From Histidinibacterium aquaticum (GTDB taxonomy: Bacteria; Pseudomonadota; Alphaproteobacteria; Rhodobacterales; Rhodobacteraceae), in assembly GCF_008710275.1 (NCBI RefSeq), contig NZ_VYQE01000004.1:434001-498000 (forward strand): a stretch of 64,000 bases of DNA, given 5' to 3'. The notes under the pieces were generated by a model. It made no database searches and was not told the origin of the DNA. It saw only the letters and a list, made by a program, of their open reading frames with translations. The translations under genes and the position numbers were made by a program. Positions 3,973-29,760 of the stretch are shown piece after piece (position 1 is the stretch's first letter; each line of letters begins with the position of its first letter).

Positions 3973-5052
3973 ATGAACATCCCTCAGTTCTCGCATGATG
4001 ACCTGCGGCTCGCAGAGCTGCGCTCCTACGGTATTCTCGATACCGATCCGGAGCGTGACTTCGACGAGATCGCCTCGCTCGCCGCGCGCATCTGCGACGC
4101 CCCGGTCGCGCTCGTCAGTTTCGTCGATGCCGACAGGCAGTGGTTCAAAGCGAAGGTCGGGCTCGAGGACTCGGAGACGGGGATCGAGCGGTCCTACTGC
4201 GCGCTCGCGATTCGCCAGGAGGGTATCTTCGAGGTCGAGAACCTGCACGAAGATCCCCGGACGAAGAACAATCCGCTCCTCAAGGACCGCCCGGAACTAC
4301 ACTTCTACGCCGGCGCTCCGCTCCGGACCGAGGCCGGGCTGGCCCTTGGATCGCTTTGCGTCCTGGATACGCGGCCGAGGGTGCTGAACGAGACCCAGCG
4401 CGAGGCGCTGCGGGTCCTCGCCAAGCAGGTCATCTGGCAGCTCGACGCCCGCCGCAATCTGACCCTGGCCGAGATCCAGCGGCAGGAGGTCGATCATCGC
4501 GTGAAGAATTCGCTGCAATCCGTCGCGTCCTACGCGCGGTTGCTGGCGCACAGCGCCGGAAGCGAAGAGACGCGAGCCGCCCTGATGACCTTGCAGGGCA
4601 GGATCGACACGGTCGCGGCTCTGCACGAGGCGCTCTATCTCACGAAGGCCGACGCGCGCGTCGACCTGGCGCGCTACCTGCTTCGCGTGGGCGAGCTGCT
4701 CAAGCCGCATTGCCCAGAGAACGTGGGGCTCTCGGTCGCCGCCGGCCCTGCGGAGGTCCCGACCCAGGTTGCCACGGCCTGCGCGAGTATCGTGAACGAA
4801 GTCGTGGCCAACGCCATCAAGCACGCCTTTCCCGACGGGCGGAGCGGGACGATCAGCCTGACCGGCGCGCAGGAGGGCGAGTGGTACATTCTCGACTGCA
4901 GCGACGATGGTGTCGGCCTCGCGGAGGACGGCGGATCCGGCCTGGGGCTCAGGATCATCGACGCGGCGGCGCAGCAGATTGGCGGCCTCGTGGAGCGGCC
5001 GGAGGCCGAAGTGGGTCACAGGTTGCGGGTTTCGGTGCCGCTCGAAAACTGA
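3973..5052 (+). CDS. GAF-domain sensor histidine kinase, HisKA_2/HWE type
   Basis: A 359-residue soluble kinase with no membrane segment. Residues about 24-155 form a GAF domain of the kind that opens such kinases (FDEIASLAARICDAPVALVSFVD, YAGAPLRTEAGLALGSLCVLD). The phosphoacceptor box is VDHRVKNSLQSV with His175, followed by an HATPase domain (NEVVANAIKHAF, then DGVGL and GSGLGL). The ATG at 3973 is chosen because the GAF fold starts right after it; the frame is open further upstream into the TetR gene. Kinases of this class often feed the PhyR general stress pathway in alphaproteobacteria, but no receiver gene adjoins it. The signal sensed is unknown. A 68-residue protein and a TPR-like protein follow in the same direction. 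Confidence 0.88.
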   Translation: MNIPQFSHDDLRLAELRSYGILDTDPERDFDEIASLAARICDAPVALVSFVDADRQWFKAKVGLEDSETGIERSYCALAIRQEGIFEVENLHEDPRTKNNPLLKDRPELHFYAGAPLRTEAGLALGSLCVLDTRPRVLNETQREALRVLAKQVIWQLDARRNLTLAEIQRQEVDHRVKNSLQSVASYARLLAHSAGSEETRAALMTLQGRIDTVAALHEALYLTKADARVDLARYLLRVGELLKPHCPENVGLSVAAGPAEVPTQVATACASIVNEVVANAIKHAFPDGRSGTISLTGAQEGEWYILDCSDDGVGLAEDGGSGLGLRIIDAAAQQIGGLVERPEAEVGHRLRVSVPLEN

Positions 5053-5347: not shown

Positions 5348-6304
5348 ATGACGCCCGACGATCCTCTGATCGTCGACGCCGAGTTCCTGGCGCGGCAGGC
5401 TTGGAGTCTTCGGTGGAGTTCGCGCCAGCGAAGCTGCGAGATGGCCGAGGCGGCGCTCGAGGCGTCGGACCGTCAGAGCGTGACCGGCTCCGCCTATCGC
5501 ACCCTCGCCTGGCAGTCGCGCTGGCGCGGCTCTTTCCGGTGGTGCGGCATCTTCGGCCGCAAGGCACTGGAGGTGCTCGACCCGGTTCGTTCGCCGGACA
5601 TGGTCGGCGACGTCCATGCCTCCCTTGCCGTGATGCACTACTCGTCGGGGCGACGGGACCTCGGGATCGACGCCGTGGAGTCCGGCTTCAGGGCGATCGG
5701 GCCGCAGGGGCACACGGAAACGCGGGTCGATCTGATGGCGGTCAGGTCCCGGATCCTCCGCCACCGGAACCGGCCCGAAGAATGCCTGTCGATGCTGCTG
5801 CGCGCGCAGGAGCTGGTCCAAGGCGCCCCGGCGGCCCGGATCCAGATGGAGATCGCACGGCATCTCAATGCCACCGACGAGCCCGAGGAGGCCCTGCGCC
5901 ACGGGCTCGAAGCCGTGGTCAAGGCCCAGCATCACGACAACCGGCTCGTCCTGCCCTATGCCTTCGAGGTGGTGGCCGCGACGCAGATCGCGCTTGGTCA
6001 GCTGGTCCGGGCACGACGGCACCTGGAAGACGCCTGGACCTGCGCCGAGGAAACCGAGGACACGCGGGCGCGCTGCCTGGTCCGTTACCAGAGGGGCCGC
6101 CTGGCGCGCGCGGAGGGCAATCCGTACGAGGCCCTCGCGGAATTTGAGGCCGGGCTCGAGGCGGCGCGCATGATGCCCTACGCCTATGGCGAAGCCCGCC
6201 TTCACCGGGAGCTCGCCGAGTTGCACGAAGAGGCCGGGCTGGCCGACGCCGCCCTCGCGTCGTGGAAGTCCTACGCGCGGCTGAAGCGGGCCGAGTCCGA
6301 CTGA
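5348..6304 (+). CDS. TPR-like helical repeat protein
   Basis: A 318-residue soluble protein built of helix pairs. Repeated patterns of about 34-40 residues with Ala/Leu/Tyr spacing run through its length, for example CLVRYQRGRLARAEGNPYEA and HRELAELHEEAGLADAALAS near the C terminus, which read as tetratricopeptide repeats. No catalytic domain is visible. Such repeat arrays usually bind proteins. Being third in line behind a GAF histidine kinase and a 68-residue protein suggests an output scaffold or sensor partner, which is inference. The stop is only 19 bases from the 3' end of the convergent preA gene. The related N-terminal halves of some diguanylate cyclases have similar repeats, but no GGDEF domain follows here. 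Confidence 0.7.
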   Translation: MTPDDPLIVDAEFLARQAWSLRWSSRQRSCEMAEAALEASDRQSVTGSAYRTLAWQSRWRGSFRWCGIFGRKALEVLDPVRSPDMVGDVHASLAVMHYSSGRRDLGIDAVESGFRAIGPQGHTETRVDLMAVRSRILRHRNRPEECLSMLLRAQELVQGAPAARIQMEIARHLNATDEPEEALRHGLEAVVKAQHHDNRLVLPYAFEVVAATQIALGQLVRARRHLEDAWTCAEETEDTRARCLVRYQRGRLARAEGNPYEALAEFEAGLEAARMMPYAYGEARLHRELAELHEEAGLADAALASWKSYARLKRAESD

Positions 6305-6323
6305 CCCGGCCCGGGTGTGGCGG

Positions 6324-7628
6324 TCACTCCGCGGCCTTGGCCATCGGGTTGTTCGGGTGCGTCGTCCAGTTGGCGTACTCTTTCGCCACGACCTTGCCCG
6401 TGCGCGGGTCGGTGGTGCCGGGGGCGAGCTCCTCCATGGTGATGCAGTCCTCGACCGGGCAGACGTCCAGGCAGAGGTTGCAGGCCACGCACTCCTCGTC
6501 GATCACCTCGAAGACCCGGCCGGGCTTCATGGCGATGGCCTGGTGGCTGGTATCCTCGCAGGCCGCGTAGCAGCGGCCGCACTTGATGCAGAGATCCTGG
6601 TCGATCCGCGCCTTGGTGACGTAGTTGAGGTTCAGGTACTGCCAGTCGGTGACGTTCGGGACGGCCTTTCCGATGAACTCGGAGGTCGAGGCGTAGCCCT
6701 TCTCGTCCATCCACTGCGAGAGGTCGCGGGCCATCTCCTGCACGATCTTGAAGCCGTACGTCATCGCGGCGGTGCAGACCTGCACGTTGCCGCAGCCCAG
6801 GGCCATGAACTCGGCCGCGTCGCGCCAGGTGGTGATGCCGCCGATGCCGGAGATCGGCAGGCCTGCCGTCGCCGGGTCGCGCGCGATCTCGGAAACCATG
6901 GACATCGCGATCGGCTTGACCGCCGGGCCGCAGTAGCCGCCGTGGCTGCCCTTGCCGTCGATGGTGGGCATGGGCGCGAAGTTGTCGAGGTCGACGCCGG
7001 TGATCGAGTTGATGGTGTTGATGAGGCTCACCGCGTCGGCGCCGCCCCGCTTCGCCGCGGCGGCGGGCTTGCGGATGTCGGTGATGTTCGGCGTGAGCTT
7101 CACGATCACCGGGCGGTCGTAGTGCTTCTTGCACCAGCGGGTGACCATCTCGATGTACTCGGGCACCTGGCCCACGGCAGAGCCCATGCCGCGCTCGGAC
7201 ATGCCATGCGGGCAGCCGAAGTTGAGCTCGATCCCGTCTGCGCCGGTCTCGGCCACGCGCGGCAAGATGGCGGCCCAGGCCTCTTCCTCGCAGGGGACCA
7301 TGATCGAGGCGATGAGCGCGCGGTCGGGATAGTCCGCCTTGACCCGCGCCATCTCCTCGAGGTTGGTCTCGAGCGGACGGTCGGTGATCAGCTCGATGTT
7401 GTTGATCCCGAGCACCCGGCGGTCTGCGCCGTGGATGACGCCGTAGCGCGGGCCGTTGACGTTGACGACCGGCGGGCCCTCGGCGCCCAGCGTCTTCCAG
7501 ACGACGCCGCCCCAGCCGGCCTCGAAGGCGCGGCGGACGTTGTATTCCTTGTCCGTCGGAGGCGCGGAGGCCAGCCAGAAGGGGTTCGGGCTCTTGATGC
7601 CCAGAAAGTCAGTCGTGAGATCGGCCAT
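6324..7628 (-). CDS. preA: Dihydropyrimidine dehydrogenase, catalytic subunit PreA
   Basis: Reduces uracil or thymine to the 5,6-dihydro form, the first step of the reductive pathway, together with PreT. The 434-residue protein has an N-terminal FMN-binding TIM barrel like dihydroorotate dehydrogenase, with the catalytic Cys region LNFGCPHGMSERGMG and the FMN-phosphate region ISGIGGI. The C-terminal part holds two 4Fe-4S ferredoxin motifs, CIKCGRCYAAC and CVACNLCLDVCPVEDC, which take electrons from PreT. It is the last gene of the minus-strand operon preT, Fpg-like gene, preA, with a 27-base gap to the gene before. Full length for the family, no odd residues. Confidence 0.95.
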   Translation of the reverse strand: MADLTTDFLGIKSPNPFWLASAPPTDKEYNVRRAFEAGWGGVVWKTLGAEGPPVVNVNGPRYGVIHGADRRVLGINNIELITDRPLETNLEEMARVKADYPDRALIASIMVPCEEEAWAAILPRVAETGADGIELNFGCPHGMSERGMGSAVGQVPEYIEMVTRWCKKHYDRPVIVKLTPNITDIRKPAAAAKRGGADAVSLINTINSITGVDLDNFAPMPTIDGKGSHGGYCGPAVKPIAMSMVSEIARDPATAGLPISGIGGITTWRDAAEFMALGCGNVQVCTAAMTYGFKIVQEMARDLSQWMDEKGYASTSEFIGKAVPNVTDWQYLNLNYVTKARIDQDLCIKCGRCYAACEDTSHQAIAMKPGRVFEVIDEECVACNLCLDVCPVEDCITMEELAPGTTDPRTGKVVAKEYANWTTHPNNPMAKAAE

Positions 7629-7655: not shown

Positions 7656-8444
7656 TCAGCCGGCGGCCTGGTGTCTGTTGCAGTAATGCGCGGTCCGCCC
7701 ACCGACGGTCATCTTCTCGATGGTCCCGCCGCAGCGCGGGCAGTCGGCGCCCGCCGTCCGGTGCGGCTTGAGCCAGTCGTCGGGAATGCGGGAGTAGTCG
7801 GTGTCGATGTCGAGGATCGTCTGCATGACGTCCTGGGCGGTTCTGGTCAGCTTGAGCCGCTGGTCGTCCGAGAGACTGCCGGTCTCGGCATCCGGGGCGA
7901 TGCCACACTGGAAAAGCGCCTCGTCCGACCAGAGATTGCCGATGCCGGCGATCTTCTTCTGCGACATGAGGGCGGACTTGATCGCGCCCTTTCCGGTGCC
8001 GAGCCGGTCGGCCAGCGTCTCGGCGCTCGCCTCCAGCGCGTCGGGGCCGAGGCCCGTCTCCTCGATGTATCGGTCCGGGTCCTCGATGACGGTGACCGAG
8101 CCCAGCTTGCGCGGGCAGCGGAATCCCAGCCGGGCGCCGCCTTCGAACTCGAATGTGATCCGCGTGTAGTCCGGCGGCCCGTCGGCCTCGTCCCAGACCC
8201 TCAGAGAGCCCGTCATCCCGAGGCTCACGGCGATCCAGGGGCCAGTGGCGGATCCCGCGAAGATCGCCTTTCCGTGGCGCCGGGCCTCGGTGAACTGGCG
8301 GCCCTCGAAGCGGCTCCGCTCCTCCGCGCCTGGGAGATCGACGCTCTTCGTGTCATTGCCGAGCCGGACCGCAGTGATCGTCCGGTTCAGTGCGCCGGCC
8401 TCGACGCGCCTCCGGTTCTGCTCGCACTCGGGCAGTTCGGGCAT
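7656..8444 (-). CDS. Fpg/Nei-family DNA glycosylase-like protein inside the pyrimidine operon
   Basis: A 262-residue protein of the formamidopyrimidine-DNA glycosylase family. Seen: the N terminus MPELPECE with the catalytic Pro2 and Glu3, a Lys at 59 in RRHGK matching the beta-hairpin Lys, the helix-two-turn-helix region SQKKIAGIGNLWSDEALF, and a C-terminal zinc finger. The finger reads Cys235, Cys238, Cys255 and then His258 where the family normally has a fourth Cys, with the usual spacing of 2-16-2. These enzymes remove oxidised bases and nick the strand. The gene is 13 bases after preT and 27 before preA, so it is co-transcribed with the dehydrogenase subunits. Why a repair glycosylase is here is unclear. 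It is probably active, since the catalytic residues are kept. Confidence 0.85.
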   Translation of the reverse strand: MPELPECEQNRRRVEAGALNRTITAVRLGNDTKSVDLPGAEERSRFEGRQFTEARRHGKAIFAGSATGPWIAVSLGMTGSLRVWDEADGPPDYTRITFEFEGGARLGFRCPRKLGSVTVIEDPDRYIEETGLGPDALEASAETLADRLGTGKGAIKSALMSQKKIAGIGNLWSDEALFQCGIAPDAETGSLSDDQRLKLTRTAQDVMQTILDIDTDYSRIPDDWLKPHRTAGADCPRCGGTIEKMTVGGRTAHYCNRHQAAG

Positions 8445-8457
8445 CAGACGGCTCCGC

Positions 8458-9786
8458 TCACTTGGCCATGAGCGCGGCGTGGATGTCTTCGGCAGCGTCC
8501 CGGCCTTCCGCCACCGCCACGACGGTCAGGTCCTCTCCCGGCGTGCAGTCGCCGCCGGCCCAGACGCCGGGAACGGAGGTCCGTCCCGCACCCGTCACGG
8601 CGATCTTGCGGCCGTCGAGTTCGACTCCCTCGTAGGGAACGAGGGTCTGGCCGATGGCGCGGAAGACCTGATCGGCGGGAAGGCGCAGGCGTTCCCCGGT
8701 GCCGGAGAGACCGTCGGGCCCCTCCTCGGTATATTCCATCTCGATCTCGACGGCGGAGCCGTTGCCGTGCACGGCGACCGGCATCACCCGGTCGATGATC
8801 CGGACGCCCTTGGAACTCGCAAGGTCCTGCTCGTACTTCGATGCGCCCATCCGGTCGCGGCCGCGCCGGTAGGCGAGGGTGACGTTCTCTGCGCCGAGAA
8901 GCTTCGACTGGACCGCCGCGTCGATGGCGGTCATGCCGCCGCCGATCACCACGACGTTCCGGCCGACGGGCAGCGTCGCAAGATCGGAGGTCTGGCGCAG
9001 CTCGGCGATGAAGGAGACGGCGTCGTCGACGCCAGCCTTGTCGGCCCCTTCCGCGTCGAGCGCATTGACGGCCGCGAGACCCACGCCAAGGAACACCGCG
9101 TCGAATTCGTCCCGAAGGGTGTCGAGCGACAGGTCCTCGCCCAGTGCACGGCCGGTTTCGATGGTTATGCCGCCGATGCCGAGAAGCCACTCGACCTCGC
9201 GGGCCGCGAAATCCTCGGTGCTCTTGTAGGCGGCGATGCCGTACTCGTTGAGGCCGCCGGCCCGCTCGCGCGCGTCGTAGACGGTGACGGCATGGCCCTT
9301 CATCGCGAGCCGATGGGCGCACGAGAGACCGGCGGGGCCGGCGCCGACGACGGCGACGCGCTTGCCGGTTTCCGCGGCGCGGACGTAGGGATGACCCTGC
9401 CGCGCCATGAGGCTGTCGGTCGCGTGCCGCTGGAGGCGGCCGATCTCGACGGGACGCCCCTCGGCCATCTCGCGCACGCAGGCCTCCTCGCAGAGCTCCT
9501 CGGTCGGGCAGACGCGGGCGCACATGCCGCCGAAGATGTTCTGGTCGAATATCGTTTTCGCCGCCGCCTCGGGCTGGCCCGTGGCGATCTGGCGAATGAA
9601 GAGCGGGATGTCGATCTCCGTCGGGCAGGCCGTCACGCAGGGCGCGTCGTAGCAGAAATAGCAGCGATCCGCGGCGACCGCGGCCTCGTGGTGGTCGAGC
9701 GGCGCATGCAGATCGTCGAAGTTCGAGGTGATCTCTTCGGCGGGCAGGCGCCCGGCGGCGATGCCGGGTGTGAGAGGGCTGGACAT
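8458..9786 (-). CDS. preT: Dihydropyrimidine dehydrogenase, NAD(P)H-oxidising subunit PreT
   Basis: Passes electrons from NAD(P)H through FAD and iron-sulfur clusters to PreA. The 442-residue protein resembles the glutamate synthase small subunit. Residues about 40-115 carry two Cys clusters (CYFCYDAPCVTACP and CARVCPTEELCEEAC), followed by an FAD-binding GAGPAGLSCAHRLA motif and a pyridine nucleotide motif VVIGGGMTAIDAA. It is the first gene of the operon that ends in preA. A palindrome resembling the RutR-like operator lies 43-64 bases upstream of the start. Full length, all expected motifs present. Confidence 0.93.
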   Translation of the reverse strand: MSSPLTPGIAAGRLPAEEITSNFDDLHAPLDHHEAAVAADRCYFCYDAPCVTACPTEIDIPLFIRQIATGQPEAAAKTIFDQNIFGGMCARVCPTEELCEEACVREMAEGRPVEIGRLQRHATDSLMARQGHPYVRAAETGKRVAVVGAGPAGLSCAHRLAMKGHAVTVYDARERAGGLNEYGIAAYKSTEDFAAREVEWLLGIGGITIETGRALGEDLSLDTLRDEFDAVFLGVGLAAVNALDAEGADKAGVDDAVSFIAELRQTSDLATLPVGRNVVVIGGGMTAIDAAVQSKLLGAENVTLAYRRGRDRMGASKYEQDLASSKGVRIIDRVMPVAVHGNGSAVEIEMEYTEEGPDGLSGTGERLRLPADQVFRAIGQTLVPYEGVELDGRKIAVTGAGRTSVPGVWAGGDCTPGEDLTVVAVAEGRDAAEDIHAALMAK

Positions 9787-21745: not shown

Positions 21746-21861
21746 GTCTGTCCCCTTCGGTTCCAAAGGGGGGTCTTACGCGGGCGGCCTCGGCGATCGG
21801 CTCTGGCAGACCCTACGGAACACCCCGTCCGTTTCTGTCTCCGGAGCTGTCCGGCTCCGGT

Positions 21862-22060
21862 GCATGGCAGGTCTCCTGGCTTGCGGGTCGTCGCGTCCTG
21901 CCGCCTTCCCGGGAGTGTCCCAGTGGCTGATTGGCAGGCCGCTCTCCGCCGACAGTCGCGGGGGCGGCTGCGGATTTGGGCCTCCGGCATGGATCGGCCC
22001 GGACCGCATTCCCTTTTGAGCCCCGACCGTATCCGGTCTTCGCGGGGCACCATGCTGAGC
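21862..22060 (-). ncRNA. Cobalamin (adenosylcobalamin) riboswitch
   Basis: Read on the minus strand, the segment has the conserved blocks in order: GGTGCC at the start, AAAAGGGAA, GCAGCCGCCCCCGCGACTGT, the second core GCCACTGGGACACTCCCGGGAAGG, and the B12 box GCCAGGAGACCTGCC. The ends GCATGG and CCATGC pair to close helix P1. A strong hairpin follows at 21841-21860 (CCGGAGC/GCTCCGG), then hupE. High B12 should switch off hupE-cobW-GNAT-cobN, at translation or by early termination. The match is strong by eye. Confidence 0.93.
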
Positions 22061-22062
22061 CA

Positions 22063-22092
22063 TTGATGCGCAGCGGGACGCGCCTGCGTCAA
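22063..22092 (-). promoter_or_regulatory. Possible promoter ahead of the cobalamin riboswitch
   Basis: On the minus strand TTGACG (22092-22087) and CATCAA (22068-22063) are 18 bases apart, directly upstream of the riboswitch. The first box matches the -35 consensus at five of six positions; the second is a weak -10. Placement fits a transcript that starts a few bases before the riboswitch. Support is positional and weak. Confidence 0.3.
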
Positions 22093-22257
22093 GCGCGATT
22101 GCGACCGGGTGTCGCTCGGCTGCGGCGAGGTTAAGCGGCAGCAAGCGCAATATCTTGGGGATAAATCCGCCTGCTCGACCGCATGTGGTGGCGTCGCCGT
22201 TGACTCCGGACCTTCGCCTTCGCCAGTCTGGATTTCGAGCAGAATCGGAGAGTGCAG

Positions 22258-25200
22258 GTGAAGTTCACGCGGCTGAGGCTCAACGGCTTCAAGTCCTTCG
22301 TCGACCCCACGGACCTCGTCATCGCGGACGGGCTCACCGGGGTCGTCGGGCCGAACGGCTGCGGCAAGTCGAACCTGCTCGAGGCGCTGCGCTGGGTGAT
22401 GGGCGAGAACCGCCCGACGGCGATGCGCGGCGGTGGGATGGAGGACGTGATCTTCGCCGGCGCCTCGTCGCGCCCGGCGCGGAACCACGCCGAGGTGTCG
22501 CTGGTGCTCGACAACACGGAGCGCACAGCGCCCGCCGGGTTCAACGACGCCGACATCCTGGAGATCACCCGCCGCATCACCCGCGACGTCGGCTCGGCCT
22601 ACAAGCTGGCGGGCAAGGACGTGCGGGCGCGGGACGTCCAGATGCTCTTCGCCGACGCGTCGACGGGCGCGCATTCGCCGGCCCTGGTGCGCCAGGGCCA
22701 GATATCGGAGCTGATCAACGCCCGCCCCAAGGCGCGCCGCAAGGTTCTCGAGGACGCCGCCGGGATCGGCGGTCTCTATCAGCGGCGGCACGAGGCGGAA
22801 CTGAAGCTCAAGTCGGCCGAGCAGAATCTCGCCCGGGTCGATGACGTGATCGAGCAACTGGCCAGCCAGCTCTCGCAGCTGGCCCGCCAGGCCAAGCAGG
22901 CGGCGCGCTACCGCGAGATCGGCACGGCGCTGCGCCAGTCCGAAGGCGCGCTGCTCTTCGTGCGCTGGCGCGAAGCCGACGAGGGCCGCGCGGCCGCCGA
23001 AAGCGCCCTGCGCGAGCTGACCACGGGCGCGGCTCAGGCGGAAAGCGATGCCCGCAAGGCGGCGACGGCCCGCGAGGCAGCCGAAGAAGCGCTGCCGCCG
23101 CTGCGCGAGGAAGAGGCCATCGCCGCCGCGGTCCTGCAGCGCCTCACAGTCGAGCGCGACGGCCTGGCCGACGAGGAGGCGCGGGCCCGCGAGACCATCG
23201 AGGCGCTCGATGCCCGCATCGCCCAGCTCAGCCGCGACATCGAGCGGGAGACGGGCCTCAACCACGACGCGGGCGAGACGATCGAGTCGCTCCGGACGGA
23301 GGCGGAGGAGCTCGAGGCGGCGGGCCAAGGCCACGCTGGCAAGCTGGAGGAGGCCGCGTCGCTCTCCGCCGAGGCGGCTGAGGTCCTTCAGGCCCGGGAA
23401 GGCGACCAGTCCCGCCTGACCGAAGACATGGCGCGCCTCTCGGCCCGTCACCAGGCGGCGCATCGGCTGGTCGAGGATCACCGCAAGACGCTCGCCCGCG
23501 CGGAGGGCGAATCGTCCAAGGCGCGGGCTGCCCGCGAATCCGCCGAACGGGCACTGGCCGAGGCCGAGAGGGCCATGGAACAGGCGACCGAGAAGGAGAG
23601 CGTCGCGCGCGGCACCGCCGAGAACGCGGAGAACACGCTGGCCGAGGCCGACGCCGCCCGCTCCGACGCGCAGGGACGCGAGGCCGAGGCGCGCGCCGCC
23701 CGCTCCGCCGCCGAGGGCGAGGCCTCGGCTCTGAGGGCCGAGGTTGCCGCGCTCGAAAAGCTGGTGAACCGCGACGGCCAAGACGGCCAGCAACTCCTGG
23801 ACCGCGTGGAGGTCCGGAGCGGGTACGAGAAGGCACTCGGTGCCGCGCTCGCCGACGATCTGCGGGCTCCGGTGGTCGCCCCCGATGCCCTGTCCGGCTG
23901 GGTCCCGCTCCCCGGCTACTCCGACGCGGCCCCCCTTCCGGAGGGCGCACAGCCCCTGTCGGAGGTCGTCACGGTGCCGGAGGTGCTGGTCCGCCGTATC
24001 GGCCAGATCGGTCTTGTCGCGCCGGAGGACGGCCCCCGGCTGCAGGCAGCCCTTCGCCCGGGCCAGCGGCTGGTCTCGGTGGAAGGGGATCTCTGGCGGT
24101 GGGACGGCTACCGGGCGGGGGCCGCCGACGCCCCGACGGCCGCCGCGCTGCGCCTGCAGCAACTCAACCGCCTGACGGAGCTCAAGCGCGATCTGGAAGA
24201 GGTCAAGGCACGCGCTGACGGCGCGACCCGGGCGCACGAACACCTCTCTGCCCGCCTCGAAGAGCTCACGCGGGCCGACAAGGCGGCCCGCGAGGCGCGC
24301 CGGGACGCCGACCGGCTCGTGGCCGAGGCGGCACGCGCCCTCAGCCGCGCCGAGGCCGACCGCAACCTCTCGGCGGGCAAGCTGGAGACCGCCGGTCTCG
24401 CGCTGGAACGCTACGAGGCCGAAGCCGAGGAGAGCCGCCGGTCGCTGGCCGAGGCGGAACGCGCCATCGGCGACCTGCCCGACCTCGAGGGCGCCCGGCG
24501 CGAGGTCGAGCAGGTCCGCACCGCCGTCGAGGCCGCGCGGATCGCCATGATGTCCCGCCGGTCCGCCCACGACGAGTTGCGTCGCGAGGGCGAGGCGCGG
24601 GCCAAGCGCCTCCGCACCCTCGAAGCCGAGATCAAGACCTGGACGACCCGCCTCGAGACGGCGGGTCAGCGGTCTGCCGAGCTGGAGGCGCGGCGCCGGG
24701 ATGCCGAAGCGGAGCTCGAAGGCGCCAAGGGCGCGCCGGAAGAGATTGCCGCGAAGCGCGAGAAACTCGCCGACTCGATCGGAGAGGCCGAGGCCCGCCG
24801 CAATACTGCGGGCGACCGGCTCGCCGCGGGCGAGACCGCCCTGCGCGAGGCCACGGTCGCAGAGCGCGAGGCAGAACGCGCGGCGTCGGAGGCGCGCGAG
24901 GCGCGGGCCCGGGGCGAAGCCCGGCTGGAGGCGGCGCGCGAGGCGGTGGCGTCGGCCGCCGCCCGCACCGCCGAGGCGCTGGAGATGCCGCCTCAGCAGC
25001 TGCCCGAGGCGCTGGGGCTCGAAACCGACAGCCTTGGAAGTCCGGATGCCATCGAGGCCGAGGTGAACCGCCTGAAACGCCAGCGCGATGCGCTGGGTGC
25101 GGTGAACCTGCGCGCCGAAGAGGACGCCCGCGAGGTTCAGCAGGAGCACGATACGCTGGTGGCGGACAAGGAGGACCTGGAAGAGGCGATCCGGACGCTT

Positions 25201-25713
25201 CGCTCGGGCATCGCCAGCCTGAACCGCGAAGGGCGCGAGCGTTTGCTGACCGCCTTCGAGGAGGTGAACCGCAACTTCGGCACGCTCTTCACCCACCTCT
25301 TCCGTGGCGGCGAGGCCAAGCTGGAACTGGTGGAAAGCGACGATCCCCTCGACGCGGGGCTGGAGATTCTCTGCCAGCCCCCGGGCAAGAAGCTCTCGAC
25401 CCTGTCGCTTCTGTCAGGCGGCGAACAGACGCTCACCGCGCTGGCGCTGATCTTCGCGGTCTTCCTCGCCAACCCGGCGCCGATCTGCGTGCTCGACGAG
25501 GTCGACGCGCCCCTTGACGATGCCAACGTCACCCGCTTCTGCGACATGCTCGACGAGATGACCCGGCGGACCGAGACGCGCTTTCTGATCATCACACACC
25601 ACGCGGTGACCATGAGCCGGATGGATCGCCTGTTCGGCGTCACGATGGGGGAGCAGGGCGTGTCCCAGCTCGTCTCGGTGGATCTCAAGAAGGCCGAGGC
25701 GATGGTGGCCTGA
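22258..25713 (+). CDS. smc: Chromosome segregation protein SMC
   Basis: A 1151-residue SMC ATPase that compacts and separates the chromosome as a dimer with ScpA and ScpB. The P-loop GPNGCGKS is at residues 31-38, the signature LSGGEQTLTAL near 1052, and the Walker B region VLDEVDAPLDD near 1079. Between them lie two long coiled coils rich in Ala, Glu and Arg, broken by a hinge at roughly residues 510-640. The GTG at 22258 is preferred over another GTG two codons earlier, because GGAG is seven bases upstream of it and family members begin right there. It diverges from the B12 operon and converges with the LOV kinase gene, with 34 bases between the ends. Confidence 0.96.
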   Translation: MKFTRLRLNGFKSFVDPTDLVIADGLTGVVGPNGCGKSNLLEALRWVMGENRPTAMRGGGMEDVIFAGASSRPARNHAEVSLVLDNTERTAPAGFNDADILEITRRITRDVGSAYKLAGKDVRARDVQMLFADASTGAHSPALVRQGQISELINARPKARRKVLEDAAGIGGLYQRRHEAELKLKSAEQNLARVDDVIEQLASQLSQLARQAKQAARYREIGTALRQSEGALLFVRWREADEGRAAAESALRELTTGAAQAESDARKAATAREAAEEALPPLREEEAIAAAVLQRLTVERDGLADEEARARETIEALDARIAQLSRDIERETGLNHDAGETIESLRTEAEELEAAGQGHAGKLEEAASLSAEAAEVLQAREGDQSRLTEDMARLSARHQAAHRLVEDHRKTLARAEGESSKARAARESAERALAEAERAMEQATEKESVARGTAENAENTLAEADAARSDAQGREAEARAARSAAEGEASALRAEVAALEKLVNRDGQDGQQLLDRVEVRSGYEKALGAALADDLRAPVVAPDALSGWVPLPGYSDAAPLPEGAQPLSEVVTVPEVLVRRIGQIGLVAPEDGPRLQAALRPGQRLVSVEGDLWRWDGYRAGAADAPTAAALRLQQLNRLTELKRDLEEVKARADGATRAHEHLSARLEELTRADKAAREARRDADRLVAEAARALSRAEADRNLSAGKLETAGLALERYEAEAEESRRSLAEAERAIGDLPDLEGARREVEQVRTAVEAARIAMMSRRSAHDELRREGEARAKRLRTLEAEIKTWTTRLETAGQRSAELEARRRDAEAELEGAKGAPEEIAAKREKLADSIGEAEARRNTAGDRLAAGETALREATVAEREAERAASEAREARARGEARLEAAREAVASAAARTAEALEMPPQQLPEALGLETDSLGSPDAIEAEVNRLKRQRDALGAVNLRAEEDAREVQQEHDTLVADKEDLEEAIRTLRSGIASLNREGRERLLTAFEEVNRNFGTLFTHLFRGGEAKLELVESDDPLDAGLEILCQPPGKKLSTLSLLSGGEQTLTALALIFAVFLANPAPICVLDEVDAPLDDANVTRFCDMLDEMTRRTETRFLIITHHAVTMSRMDRLFGVTMGEQGVSQLVSVDLKKAEAMVA

Positions 25714-25747: not shown

Positions 25748-26791
25748 CTACAGGCTGTCCCGCTTGGGCATGTCGACCGTCACGATGGTCCCGGTCGCGC
25801 CGCGGGCGACGGACAGGGAGCCATTCAGCGCCTCGACAAGCTGCTGAACGATGCGACCGCCGAGGCTGCCCTCGGAGGGCCAGTCCGTTTCCTCCGGGAT
25901 GCCGATACCGTCATCGCTCACCTGGACCCGGACCGTTCCGTTGGAGAGCTCCTTCAGGCGCATCTCGACGATGCCCTGGTCGCGCCCGACGAAGGCGTGC
26001 TGCATGGCGTTGGTCATGATCTCGGAGGTGATAAGTCCCAGGCGCGTCGCATCCTCGAAGGGGATGGTGATGGCGTCCGCATCGATATTGACCCGCACGC
26101 CCCGGCGCCCGTCGAGATGGGCGATCGCGTTCGCCACCCGCGACAGGTAGGAGCCGAGCGACACCGGGTTGTCGTTCGACGCCCCGGACTTCACCGCTTC
26201 CGACATCTCCTCGTAGAGAAGCTGCAGGGCCTCGATCCGGTGGGACAGGGTCTCGAACTCCTCGCGCGCGCTCGATGTCCGTGCCTGCACGCGGATCATA
26301 CCGACGATCATCGAAAGGTGGTTCTTCACCCGGTGCTGAATCTCGGAGAGGGCCGAATCAAGCTCGCGCGAGCGGATTGCCGGCGGCTTCTCGCCCGACT
26401 CCGGCAGGGCCATCTGGACGCCGAGGAAGTAGCGGACCTTGCCCCCGTCGTCGGTCAGCGGGGCGATCATCAGGCGGTTCCAGAACGGCGTCCCGTCCGC
26501 GCGGTAGTTGCGGATATCGGTCGTGATCTGATCACCGCGCCCGACCGCGTCACGGATATCCTGCAGAGCATCTTCCTGGGTTTCGGTGCCCTGGAGGAAG
26601 CGGCAGTTGCGCCCGATGGCGGCCGCGCGGGAATAGCCCGTCACGTCGGTGAAGGCATCGTTGACGTAGACGATGGGATTGTCGTCCCGGCTGGGGTCCG
26701 TGATGACCATGGCGAAGGGCGCCTTGGTCAAAGCGCTCATAGCGATTTCGCCCGCGTCGAGCGGAAACTGAAATTCGAGCGGAGTTGTCAC
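25748..26791 (-). CDS. LOV-domain blue-light sensor histidine kinase, HisKA_2 type
   Basis: A 347-residue soluble photoreceptor kinase. Residues about 20-130 form a LOV domain with GRNCRFLQG, where Cys63 would form the flavin adduct, Asn96 and Asn105 in NYRADGTPFWN contact the flavin, and Gln126 ends the FLGVQ strand. All residues needed for photochemistry are present. The HisKA_2 box EIQHRVKNHLSMIVG has His153, and an HATPase domain follows (MTNAMQHAF, DDGIGIPEE, GGRIVQQLV). The GTG at 26791 is chosen for its upstream AGGA; an ATG at 26740 would cut into the cap before the LOV core. It is 113 bases downstream of cbiB and may also have its own promoter. Similar kinases in Caulobacter (LovK) and Brucella act on general stress signalling. 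Confidence 0.92.
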   Translation of the reverse strand: MTTPLEFQFPLDAGEIAMSALTKAPFAMVITDPSRDDNPIVYVNDAFTDVTGYSRAAAIGRNCRFLQGTETQEDALQDIRDAVGRGDQITTDIRNYRADGTPFWNRLMIAPLTDDGGKVRYFLGVQMALPESGEKPPAIRSRELDSALSEIQHRVKNHLSMIVGMIRVQARTSSAREEFETLSHRIEALQLLYEEMSEAVKSGASNDNPVSLGSYLSRVANAIAHLDGRRGVRVNIDADAITIPFEDATRLGLITSEIMTNAMQHAFVGRDQGIVEMRLKELSNGTVRVQVSDDGIGIPEETDWPSEGSLGGRIVQQLVEALNGSLSVARGATGTIVTVDMPKRDSL

Positions 26792-26849
26792 CGGAGTCCT
26801 GGCCTCGTCACTGTCCTCGTCGGGTGTCAGCCGACATTCCGGAAGGTCC

Positions 26850-26875
26850 AACGCCTCATGCCAATCCGCGGTTCC
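26850..26875 (-). promoter_or_regulatory. Candidate EcfG-type (general stress) promoter of the LOV kinase
   Basis: On the minus strand GGAAC (26875-26871), 17 bases, then CGTT (26853-26850). The published alphaproteobacterial general stress sigma consensus is GGAAC, 16-17 bases, CGTT. The -10 part lies 59 bases before the chosen kinase start. Short motifs occur by chance, so this is a hypothesis supported by the kind of gene it precedes. Confidence 0.4.
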
Positions 26876-26904: not shown

Positions 26905-27807
26905 TCAGAAAACGGTGAACAGGGTGACTGCTGCGAGGCCGAGCGCCCAGGCTGACCACAACTTGCGCACCGCTGCATCGATGGTGTCCGGTCCCGGGTC
27001 GCGGTTGCCCTCGGGGTGGACGAAGGGAAAGTCGCGCCGCTCGCCGTGGTAGCTGCGCGGTCCCGACAGCGTAGTGTCGAGCGCGCGCGCCATGGCAGCT
27101 TCGGGCCAGCCCGCATTCGGCGACCGGTGCAGGCGGGCGTCTCGCGCGAGCGAGGACCAACGGGGCGCGCCGCTTGCGAGCCAGAGCAGGAGCGCCGTCA
27201 GCCGAGCCGGAACCAGGTTGACGAGGTCGTCCGTGCGCGCGGCGGCCCAACCGAAGGCTTCGTGGCGCGGGGTCCGGTAGCCGATCATGCTGTCGGCGGT
27301 GTTGATCGCCTTGTAGGCCAGCATGCCCGGCAGCCCGGCCACGAGAAACCAGAAGGCCGGCGCGATGACGCCGTCGGAGAGGTTTTCCGCCGCGCTCTCG
27401 ATCGCGGCCCGGGAGATGTCGGCTGACGTCATCCCGGTCGTGTCGCGCCCCACGATGAGCGCGACCGCGCGGCGGCCTTCGCCAACAGAGATCCGAAGAT
27501 CGCGCGCGACGGCGGAGACGTGGTCGCAGAGCGATCGCTGCGCGAGGAGGACGGCGGCAACGAGGATTTCGGCGACCCGGCCGGGCAAAAGGGTCAGCAG
27601 CGCACCAGTGCCGACCGCCCCGCCAGCCAGCACGAGAAGAGCGAGACAGCCGCGAAGGCTCCGCGCCTCTCCCCGGTTCAGGCGGTCGTCCAGAAAGGCG
27701 ACTGCCCGACCCATGAGCACCGCCGGATGCGGAAGACGGGACCAGAGCGCCCGCGGTTCTCCGAGGAGCGCGTCGAGCAGCATCGCCGCGGCGAGGGCGC
27801 CGCTCAT
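26905..27807 (-). CDS. cbiB: Adenosylcobinamide-phosphate synthase (CbiB/CobD)
   Basis: Attaches the aminopropanol or its phosphate to adenosylcobyric acid, giving adenosylcobinamide (phosphate), at the inner membrane. The 300-residue protein has four to five hydrophobic helices and the family motifs [58 protein letters not shown] and [14 protein letters not shown]. The ATG at 27807 overlaps the last bases of the CobC-like gene (ATGA), showing translational coupling. In aerobic-pathway naming this is CobD. It is third in the minus-strand set DUF1636, cobC, cbiB, followed by the LOV kinase. Confidence 0.95.
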
Positions 27808-28769
27808 GTCCGACCCGGGACGTCGGCAAGCGCCTCTTCGACGCGCGCCCATTCGGACGGGGCGGGCAGGCCGAGGCGCAGCAGTCGCCCGGACCACGGG
27901 AAGACCCGGGACCAGATGCGGTGGCGGGCAAGCGCATCCTGCCAGGCGCGGCCTTCGGCCGTCTCGATCAGGCGGAATAGCGATGTCCCGCCCATGACCG
28001 TTGCGCCGCGGTCCGCGGCCAGTTCGTCGAGCCGGCGGGCATCGTCTTCGAGCCTTTCCCGGGTCTCGTCCGCCCAACCGATATCCTCCAGCGCCCGCGC
28101 GCCGATCTCGAGCGCGGGACCGGAGACAGCCCAGGGCCCGAGGCGCTCCGCCAGGTCGGCCAGAGTCTCCGGGTGCCCGATGGCGAAACCCAGCCTGACC
28201 CCGGCGAGGCCCCAGAACTTCCCGAAGCTCTTGAGGACGATGGTGCCCGGCCGGTCGGTCAGCGCAACATGGCTCCGCGCAGGGAGCGTGTCGCAGAAAC
28301 TCTCGTCGATGATCGTCAGCCTCTGCTCTGAAACCTCATCGAGGGACCAGAGGCGCCCGTCGGGGTTGTTCGGATGTACCAGAACGGCGACCGGGGCCGA
28401 CCCCTCCTCGACCACCTCGCGCCCTTGCATGCAGAATGCCGCCGCGTGTTCGTTGTAGGTGGGCCCGGGAATAAGGACCCGCCCCGGGGGCGCAAGCTCG
28501 GGCAAACGCACGATCAGCGACGAGGCACCAGGCGCGGCCACGAGGCTCGCGGTGTCGGGAACCCCCCAGAACAGCCGCGCGGCGGCCTCAAGGCGGTGAA
28601 GCGCGGTCGCATCGGGCAACGCCGTCCAGCTCTCGGATCCGACGTGGCCGGACGGGTAGGGCACCCGGTTTATCCCGGTCGACAGGTCGATCCAGTCCGC
28701 GCGACGGCCGCCGTAGCGCGCGACCGCCGCGTCCAGCCCACCACCGTGGTCGCGGGCGGCTCCGCTCAT
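27804..28769 (-). CDS. cobC: Threonine-phosphate decarboxylase-like protein CobC
   Basis: A 321-residue PLP enzyme of the aminotransferase class I/II fold, expected to make (R)-1-amino-2-propanol phosphate from L-threonine phosphate for the nucleotide loop. Seen: [12 protein letters not shown] near the N terminus, [18 protein letters not shown] with the PLP-ring Asp, and [15 protein letters not shown] with the Schiff-base Lys184. The start overlaps the stop of cbiB's neighbour on both sides: ATGA with cbiB downstream and ATGA with the DUF1636 gene upstream. Histidinol-phosphate aminotransferase is the closest paralogue, but the context favours CobC. Confidence 0.93.
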
Positions 28770-29146
28770 CCCGGTGTCTCGTCGGGAAGCGGCGGGTGCC
28801 TGGTGACGAAGTGCCCCTTCACGGTCTGCGGCCAGGTCCGATAAGGCACCTGCCCGGTCTCGGAGGCAGCATGAAGCACCGCGTAGGAGACGATTCCGTC
28901 AGCAGAGTCCGGCGTGGGCTCGAACCGGCCGAGCGTGTAGCAGAGCTTGCCCGACGCCTGGATCGCAACGTTGCAGCCGTGGCTGCACCCCATGAGGCAG
29001 GAAACCCTCCGAACCGAGACCGTTTCCCCCTCGGCCCGCGCCTCGACGAGGGCGGCGAGCCGTTCGCCGTCGGTCTGCAGGGCGGCACCGGGCTGCCAGT
29101 CGTCGCGCTTGCATGTGTCGCAGACGGTGATCCAGGTGGTCGGCAT
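28766..29146 (-). CDS. DUF1636 family, probable iron-sulfur or metal protein of the B12 locus
   Basis: A 126-residue protein of the DUF1636 family, which has a thioredoxin-like ferredoxin look. Cys9 and Cys12 in VCDTCKRD and Cys50, Cys54 and Cys58 in VSCLMGCSHGCNV could hold a 2Fe-2S cluster, and Cys69 follows. Members are commonly found in cobalamin gene sets, and this one is the first gene of the coupled set DUF1636, cobC, cbiB. The reaction is unknown. Electron supply or cobalt handling are guesses. It diverges from the single-domain receiver gene across about 215 bases. Confidence 0.85.
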   Translation of the reverse strand: MPTTWITVCDTCKRDDWQPGAALQTDGERLAALVEARAEGETVSVRRVSCLMGCSHGCNVAIQASGKLCYTLGRFEPTPDSADGIVSYAVLHAASETGQVPYRTWPQTVKGHFVTRHPPLPDETPG

Positions 29147-29361: not shown

Positions 29362-29760
29362 TTGAAACAAAAACCGATCCGCCTCCTGATCGTGGAGAGC
29401 GATCCGAGCCTGGCCTCCTTCTGGGCCCGGCACCTCTCCGCGCTCGGACACTCGGTCGAGGTCTGCGCCTCGGCCTGCGACGGCATCGCCTGGCTTTCGC
29501 GCCACCCGGCCGATGTCCTCGTCCTCGATGCCGAGCTCGAAGAAGCCTCCGGCCTCGCGGTCGCCGACTATGCGGCTGTCGCTCGGCCGGAGACCAGGGT
29601 CATCGTCGTCACCTCCGCCGGCGTCCTGTCCGACGGATCGATCTTTTCCCTCAGCACCAACACATGCGCACAGGTCAGCGCCGGCGCCCGGCTCGACGAT
29701 CTCGTGGCACTGGTCGAGCACCACGGAAATCGGGCGTCGGCCTCTAGGCCGCTGCCTTGA
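29362..29760 (+). CDS. Single-domain response regulator receiver, partly degenerate
   Basis: A 132-residue receiver domain with no output domain. Seen: the first strand RLLIVESD, the phosphoacceptor Asp56 in VLVLDAELEEASGL, and the Thr/Ser position in VIVVTSAG. The second acid of the usual pair is Ser13-Asp14 rather than two acids, and the conserved Lys before the last helix appears to be missing (the region reads AQVSAGARLDD). The start is uncertain: TTG at 29362 gives a compact receiver, but the frame is open to a TTG at 29284. The 3' end overlaps the reductase gene by 17 bases. It could be a phosphate sink or stand-alone partner for a kinase such as the LOV kinase 2.6 kb away. Confidence 0.72.
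   Translation: MKQKPIRLLIVESDPSLASFWARHLSALGHSVEVCASACDGIAWLSRHPADVLVLDAELEEASGLAVADYAAVARPETRVIVVTSAGVLSDGSIFSLSTNTCAQVSAGARLDDLVALVEHHGNRASASRPLP

Follow-up and report, generated by a model that had tools for sequence, protein, structure and literature searches.

Sequence features, relatives and placement of a predicted blue-light LOV histidine kinase encoded beside cobalamin genes in Histidinibacterium aquaticum

The window, a stretch of 64,000 nucleotides of the Histidinibacterium aquaticum genome, encodes a LOV-HisKA_2 histidine kinase between cobD and smc. The best explanation, and one we consider likely, is that this is a blue-light kinase of the EL346 type that feeds the PhyR-NepR-EcfG general stress switch, and that it is a copy which moved to the site between these two genes. 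The observations behind this explanation, all made directly, are the domain make-up and residues of the kinase, its homology to a kinase of known structure, a stress locus elsewhere in the source genome, the joint occurrence of LOV kinases and the switch in a survey of genomes, and an unusual placement. The features of the region are listed in Table 1.

Table 1. Positions in the window of the kinase gene, its domains and the surrounding features.
Feature	Position	Strand	Remarks
LOV-HisKA_2 histidine kinase gene	25748..26791	-	347 aa, GTG start; Pfam PAS_9, HisKA_2, HATPase_c
LOV (PAS) domain	26408..26737	-	aa ~19-128; adduct Cys63 in GRNCRFLQG, Gln126 in FLGVQ; aligned with EL346 LOV
HisKA_2 phosphoacceptor domain	26117..26344	-	His153 in QHRVKNH
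HATPase_c domain	25763..26053	-	N-box Asn261, DDGIG box
EcfG-type promoter-like motif GGAAC-N17-CGTT	26850..26875	-	-84 to -59 from the GTG, in the 113 nt that separate the kinase from cobD
cobD/cbiB, adenosylcobinamide-phosphate synthase	26905..27807	-	
cobC-type threonine-phosphate decarboxylase	27804..28769	-	TIGR01140, just under the cut-off
DUF1636 protein gene	28766..29146	-	first of the overlapping DUF1636-cobC-cobD run
Atypical single-domain receiver	29362..29760	+	has the Asp and Thr but not the invariant Lys; outside the kinase system on present evidence
smc	22252..25713	+	convergent with the kinase

Domain structure and relatives of the kinase

Profile searches with the window kinase gave matches to PAS_9 (the LOV domain), HisKA_2 (40.8 bits) and HATPase_c (47.3 bits), each above the Pfam cut-off and all in an intact minus-strand frame ending at 25748, in agreement with the fully equipped LOV HisKA_2 kinase described in an earlier note on this DNA. 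Every flavin and catalytic residue checked was kept in the sequence: the adduct cysteine of the NCRFLQ motif, Cys63 (GRNCRFLQG), Gln126, the phosphoacceptor His153 in HRVKNH, Asn261 of the N-box, and the DDGIG box. The reading frame stays open far 5' of the GTG at 26791, and this GTG is the sole start common to the window kinase and its ortholog in H. lentulum, which is 79% identical; the length of 347 aa was chosen because the start is conserved in this way. A longer frame of 385 aa (P0001) was dropped, as H. lentulum shares the GTG start alone and the 5' extension is not conserved. The earlier note had given the span 25748-26875, of which 25748 is indeed the 3' end of the kinase gene, but the gene starts at 26791 and 26875 is the edge of the promoter-like motif.

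The closest homolog of known structure is EL346, the blue-light-activated histidine kinase 2 of Erythrobacter litoralis HTCC2594 (PDB 4r3a), with which full-length alignment gave 161 identities in 321 positions (residues 19-343, E 3e-105). The two proteins share the LOV-HisKA_2 build end to end at 50% identity, and all of the motifs align without large gaps, although the host of EL346 belongs to another order and that of the window kinase to the Rhodobacterales. The window protein is a further example of the already known EL346-type LOV kinase, and, judged from its sequence, it is a soluble, intact LOV-HisKA_2 histidine kinase and a predicted blue-light sensor.

Several relatives of this kinase act on PhyR. 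EL346 phosphorylates PhyR in vitro, as does Brucella LOVHK (PMC4438053), and RT-HK from Rubellimicrobium thermophilum, a member of the Rhodobacteraceae, phosphorylates one of the two PhyRs of its own genome, RT-PhyR (PMC12148442). RT-HK / RT349 resembles the window kinase in its Rhodobacteraceae host, in its LOV-HWE/HisKA2 build, and in a host genome with PhyR, NepR and EcfG. RT-HK is active in the dark and switched off by light (PMC10359499, PMC12148442), and for no other natural LOV kinase has dark activity been shown (PMC12148442). Its residues His152 and Asn256, which were mutated in that work (PMC12148442), are the probable counterparts of His153 and Asn261 in the window kinase. RT-HK is no guide to the polarity of the window kinase, and since a kinase from the same bacterial family is dark-active, no light polarity is predicted here. 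The window kinase is a testable LOV kinase from the family of the dark-active RT-HK. The LovK-LovR pair of Caulobacter and the LOVHK-LovR pair of Brucella also include LOV-HisKA_2/HWE kinases on the PhyR pathway (PMC4438053, PMC5964349), but the window kinase differs from LovK and LOVHK in having no adjoining LovR gene and in scoring 187 against NCBIfam NF052306 (BluLightHisKinLov), for which the cut-off is 450.

The general stress switch and a candidate promoter

A locus on another contig of the same genome (L002) encodes PhyR, NepR, an EcfG-type sigma factor and a HisKA_2 kinase. In profile searches this PhyR matched PhyR_sigma2, a receiver domain and NF006623, and the NepR scored above its cut-off. 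The PhyR keeps its receiver residues and has a FITAF stretch resembling the FATGUY motif found in receivers on which HWE/HisKA2 kinases act (PMC5964349). PhyR is present in each of the five Histidinibacterium genomes, two of which contain a second one; in the source genome, one PhyR and two LOV kinases were detected. There is no response regulator gene beside the window kinase, and the genome encodes several further HisKA_2/HWE kinases that could share the same PhyR.

Co-occurrence was examined in 394 Rhodobacteraceae genomes, about one per genus, with a LOV histidine kinase (LOV-HK) scored at E<=1e-50. LOV-HK was found in 40 of these genomes and NepR in 188. NepR was present in 35 of the 40 genomes with LOV-HK versus 153 of the 354 others, an odds ratio of 9.2 (P 5e-8) that is uncorrected for phylogeny. 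BLUF, used as a control, gave an odds ratio of 2.3 with NepR, and the association of LOV-HK with NepR persisted both in genomes with BLUF and in those without it. A link to the stress response is supported because the PhyR-NepR-EcfG locus is present in the source genome and because LOV-HK and NepR co-occur. Five of the 40 genomes had neither NepR nor PhyR, one of them merely 77% complete, so the LOV-HK family is not always tied to the stress switch.

The earlier note had placed this kinase on the PhyR-NepR-EcfG pathway, a reading that depends on PhyR and EcfG being encoded in the genome. Both are present at L002, and together with NepR, the homology to EL346 and the co-occurrence with NepR they favor it. 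By sequence and by analogy the window kinase probably feeds this switch, with phosphotransfer to PhyR expected from the behavior of EL346, Brucella LOVHK and RT-HK (PMC4438053, PMC12148442). Blue light would link Cys63 of the LOV domain to the flavin, and the adduct would change autophosphorylation of His153, which light might raise or lower. The phosphoryl group would then pass to the FATGUY-like receiver of the PhyR encoded elsewhere in the genome, and phosphorylated PhyR would bind NepR, releasing EcfG. Transcription of the kinase gene may come from read-through from cobD, from a promoter of its own, or from both.

A candidate for such a promoter is the literal motif GGAAC-N17-CGTT, which the earlier note had pointed out and which was found 5' of the kinase. 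The window as a whole contained two GGAAC/CGTT motifs with spacers of 16-19 where 1.42 were expected. Genome-wide, there were 48 copies with a spacer of 16-17 versus 21 for a reversed control, and a hand estimate put the expected number of motifs at about 0.001 in this gap but about 0.05 over all of the gene-upstream gaps of the window. An EcfG promoter here would give the kinase positive feedback like that of Caulobacter lovK and phyK, whose expression is raised by SigT (PMC5964349); this would concern transcription only and is compatible with the best explanation. We regard it as possible, with the balance somewhat against it. The motif matches the R. thermophilum consensus, GGAAC-N16-17-C/GGTT (PMC12148442), and phyR of the source genome carries GGAAC-N16-GGTT 60 nt 5' of its start. 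Against this, the motif count in the window is at chance level. The motif was absent within 400 nt 5' of 31 other Rhodobacteraceae LOV-HKs and was not found 5' of scoA in any of the 21 scoA-kinase-scoB units searched, and the H. lentulum kinase has only the weaker GGAAC-N16-CATT, at a different position in its upstream region. Scans for sigma-70 promoters and for terminators around the kinase gave nothing useful.

Two further observations concern related elements. At 4483-5040 of the window (plus strand) there is a second HisKA_2-type kinase stretch, in an open frame of 417 aa, 29% identical to the kinase part of the LOV-HK. Near the PhyR locus, at L002 13157 (minus strand), GGAAC-N16-GGTT precedes the gene for a small protein ending in ELIKALRSH, a plausible EcfG target.

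Usual and present sites of the kinase gene

The survey placed the usual site of this kinase family inside the scoAB operon. In 22 of the 32 Rhodobacteraceae LOV-HK loci examined, the LOV-HK was encoded between scoA and scoB on one strand (L099, L005, L029-L032, L035-L046, L048-L050 and L052; in L030 only scoA is visible, at a contig end). The scoA and scoB genes encode the subunits of 3-oxoacid CoA-transferase. No description of LOV kinases in scoAB was found in the open-access papers searched. The second LOV-HK of the source genome is at such a site (L099 6869-7933, on G000:C1), where scoA occupies 6108-6803 and scoB 8044-8673. Three further Rhodobacteraceae LOV-HK loci were near topA, a gene named by sequence reading. 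In the phylogenetic tree the two copies at the cobD site grouped together with support of 100/99. This pair fell among the Rhodobacteraceae sequences, close to members of the scoAB type and others, and the deeper branches were weak. The cobD-site kinase is best read as a copy that would have derived from a Rhodobacteraceae LOV-HK family normally encoded between scoA and scoB, and would have come to lie between cobD and smc in an ancestor of two Histidinibacterium species.

A broader scheme is conceivable but doubtful, in which the Rhodobacteraceae stress kinase would ordinarily reside in the scoAB operon and couple light to acetoacetate/ketone or PHB metabolism, while the second copy in Histidinibacterium would have moved to the cob region under EcfG feedback. 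We consider it unlikely that the window kinase acts outside the stress switch altogether, tied through a further regulator to CoA-transferase or acetoacetate metabolism, as its scoAB relatives may be. Beyond its overall frequency, the scoA-kinase-scoB arrangement is seen in at least four (L040, L042, L043 and L052) of the five genomes that have LOV-HK but neither PhyR nor NepR. The window copy, however, is no longer in scoAB, and co-occurrence with NepR holds for the LOV-HK family overall.

The present site of the kinase agrees with the gene order given in the earlier note, 3' of DUF1636, cobC and cobD/cbiB on one strand. The DUF1636, cobC and cobD genes overlap by four bases at each junction on the minus strand, and are followed by the gap of about 113 nt and then the kinase. 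The order cobD-kinase-smc was found in two of the five Histidinibacterium genomes, those of the window and of H. lentulum. The other three contain DUF1636-cobC-cobD and a convergent smc, but the gap is filled differently. G001 (by Pfam) and G002 (by sequence reading) have a lytic transglycosylase there, to which G001 adds a transporter, and G004 has a transglutaminase-like gene among others, these last products also being named by sequence reading.

The earlier note had joined the kinase to the B12 genes and to B12-linked light sensing. If the kinase were a working part of the B12 set, co-expression would coordinate light signaling and cobalamin supply; its position on the same strand as cobD, across a gap with no terminator-like site, and the retention of the cobD-kinase order in two species whose proteins here are about 70-79% identical, would fit such an arrangement. 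We consider it quite improbable, as the cob genes and smc occur with no kinase between them in three of the five Histidinibacterium genomes, and of the other LOV-HK loci examined, not one of the 28 from Rhodobacteraceae or of the eight from other alphaproteobacterial families was near cobD. Neither conserved cob linkage, riboswitch control nor CarH was found to mark the kinase as belonging to B12-linked light sensing: the cobD placement is confined to the two Histidinibacterium species, a scan of the window gave no cobalamin riboswitch on the DUF1636-cobC-cobD-kinase unit, and no CarH was found in the genome, in which the sole PF02607 protein is a 235-aa corrinoid protein of the MtbC/MtgC type. 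Placement by the B12 genes looks like the outcome of a gene move, not a working link.

The window contains a single cobalamin riboswitch, on the minus strand at 21849-22069 (114 bits), 5' of a hupE-cobW pair.

Signaling to the single-domain receiver at 29362 instead of PhyR, a partnership raised in the earlier note, is very improbable: kinase and receiver share a neighborhood both here and in H. lentulum, but all four Histidinibacterium copies of the receiver keep Asp and Thr without the invariant Lys that PhyR has, none of the four has a FATGUY stretch, and the receiver is retained in G001 and G004, genomes without LOV-HK at E<=1e-30. Orthologs of this receiver are encoded at L007, L096 and L098, and it lies beside DUF1636 in four of the five Histidinibacterium genomes.

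Other candidates for light signaling were seen elsewhere in the source genome. At L100 5637-10037 (G000:C1:78.6-83.0 kb), the gene for a short LOV protein of 182 aa with the sequence GRNCRLLQG overlaps that of a 1160-aa CheB-CheR-PAS-HWE kinase, which is followed by a single-domain receiver; this unit is a second candidate for blue-light signaling. At L102 5632-8280 (G000:C5) an 882-aa multi-PAS hybrid histidine kinase is encoded, a PAS stretch of which is 36% identical to the LOV region of the window kinase.
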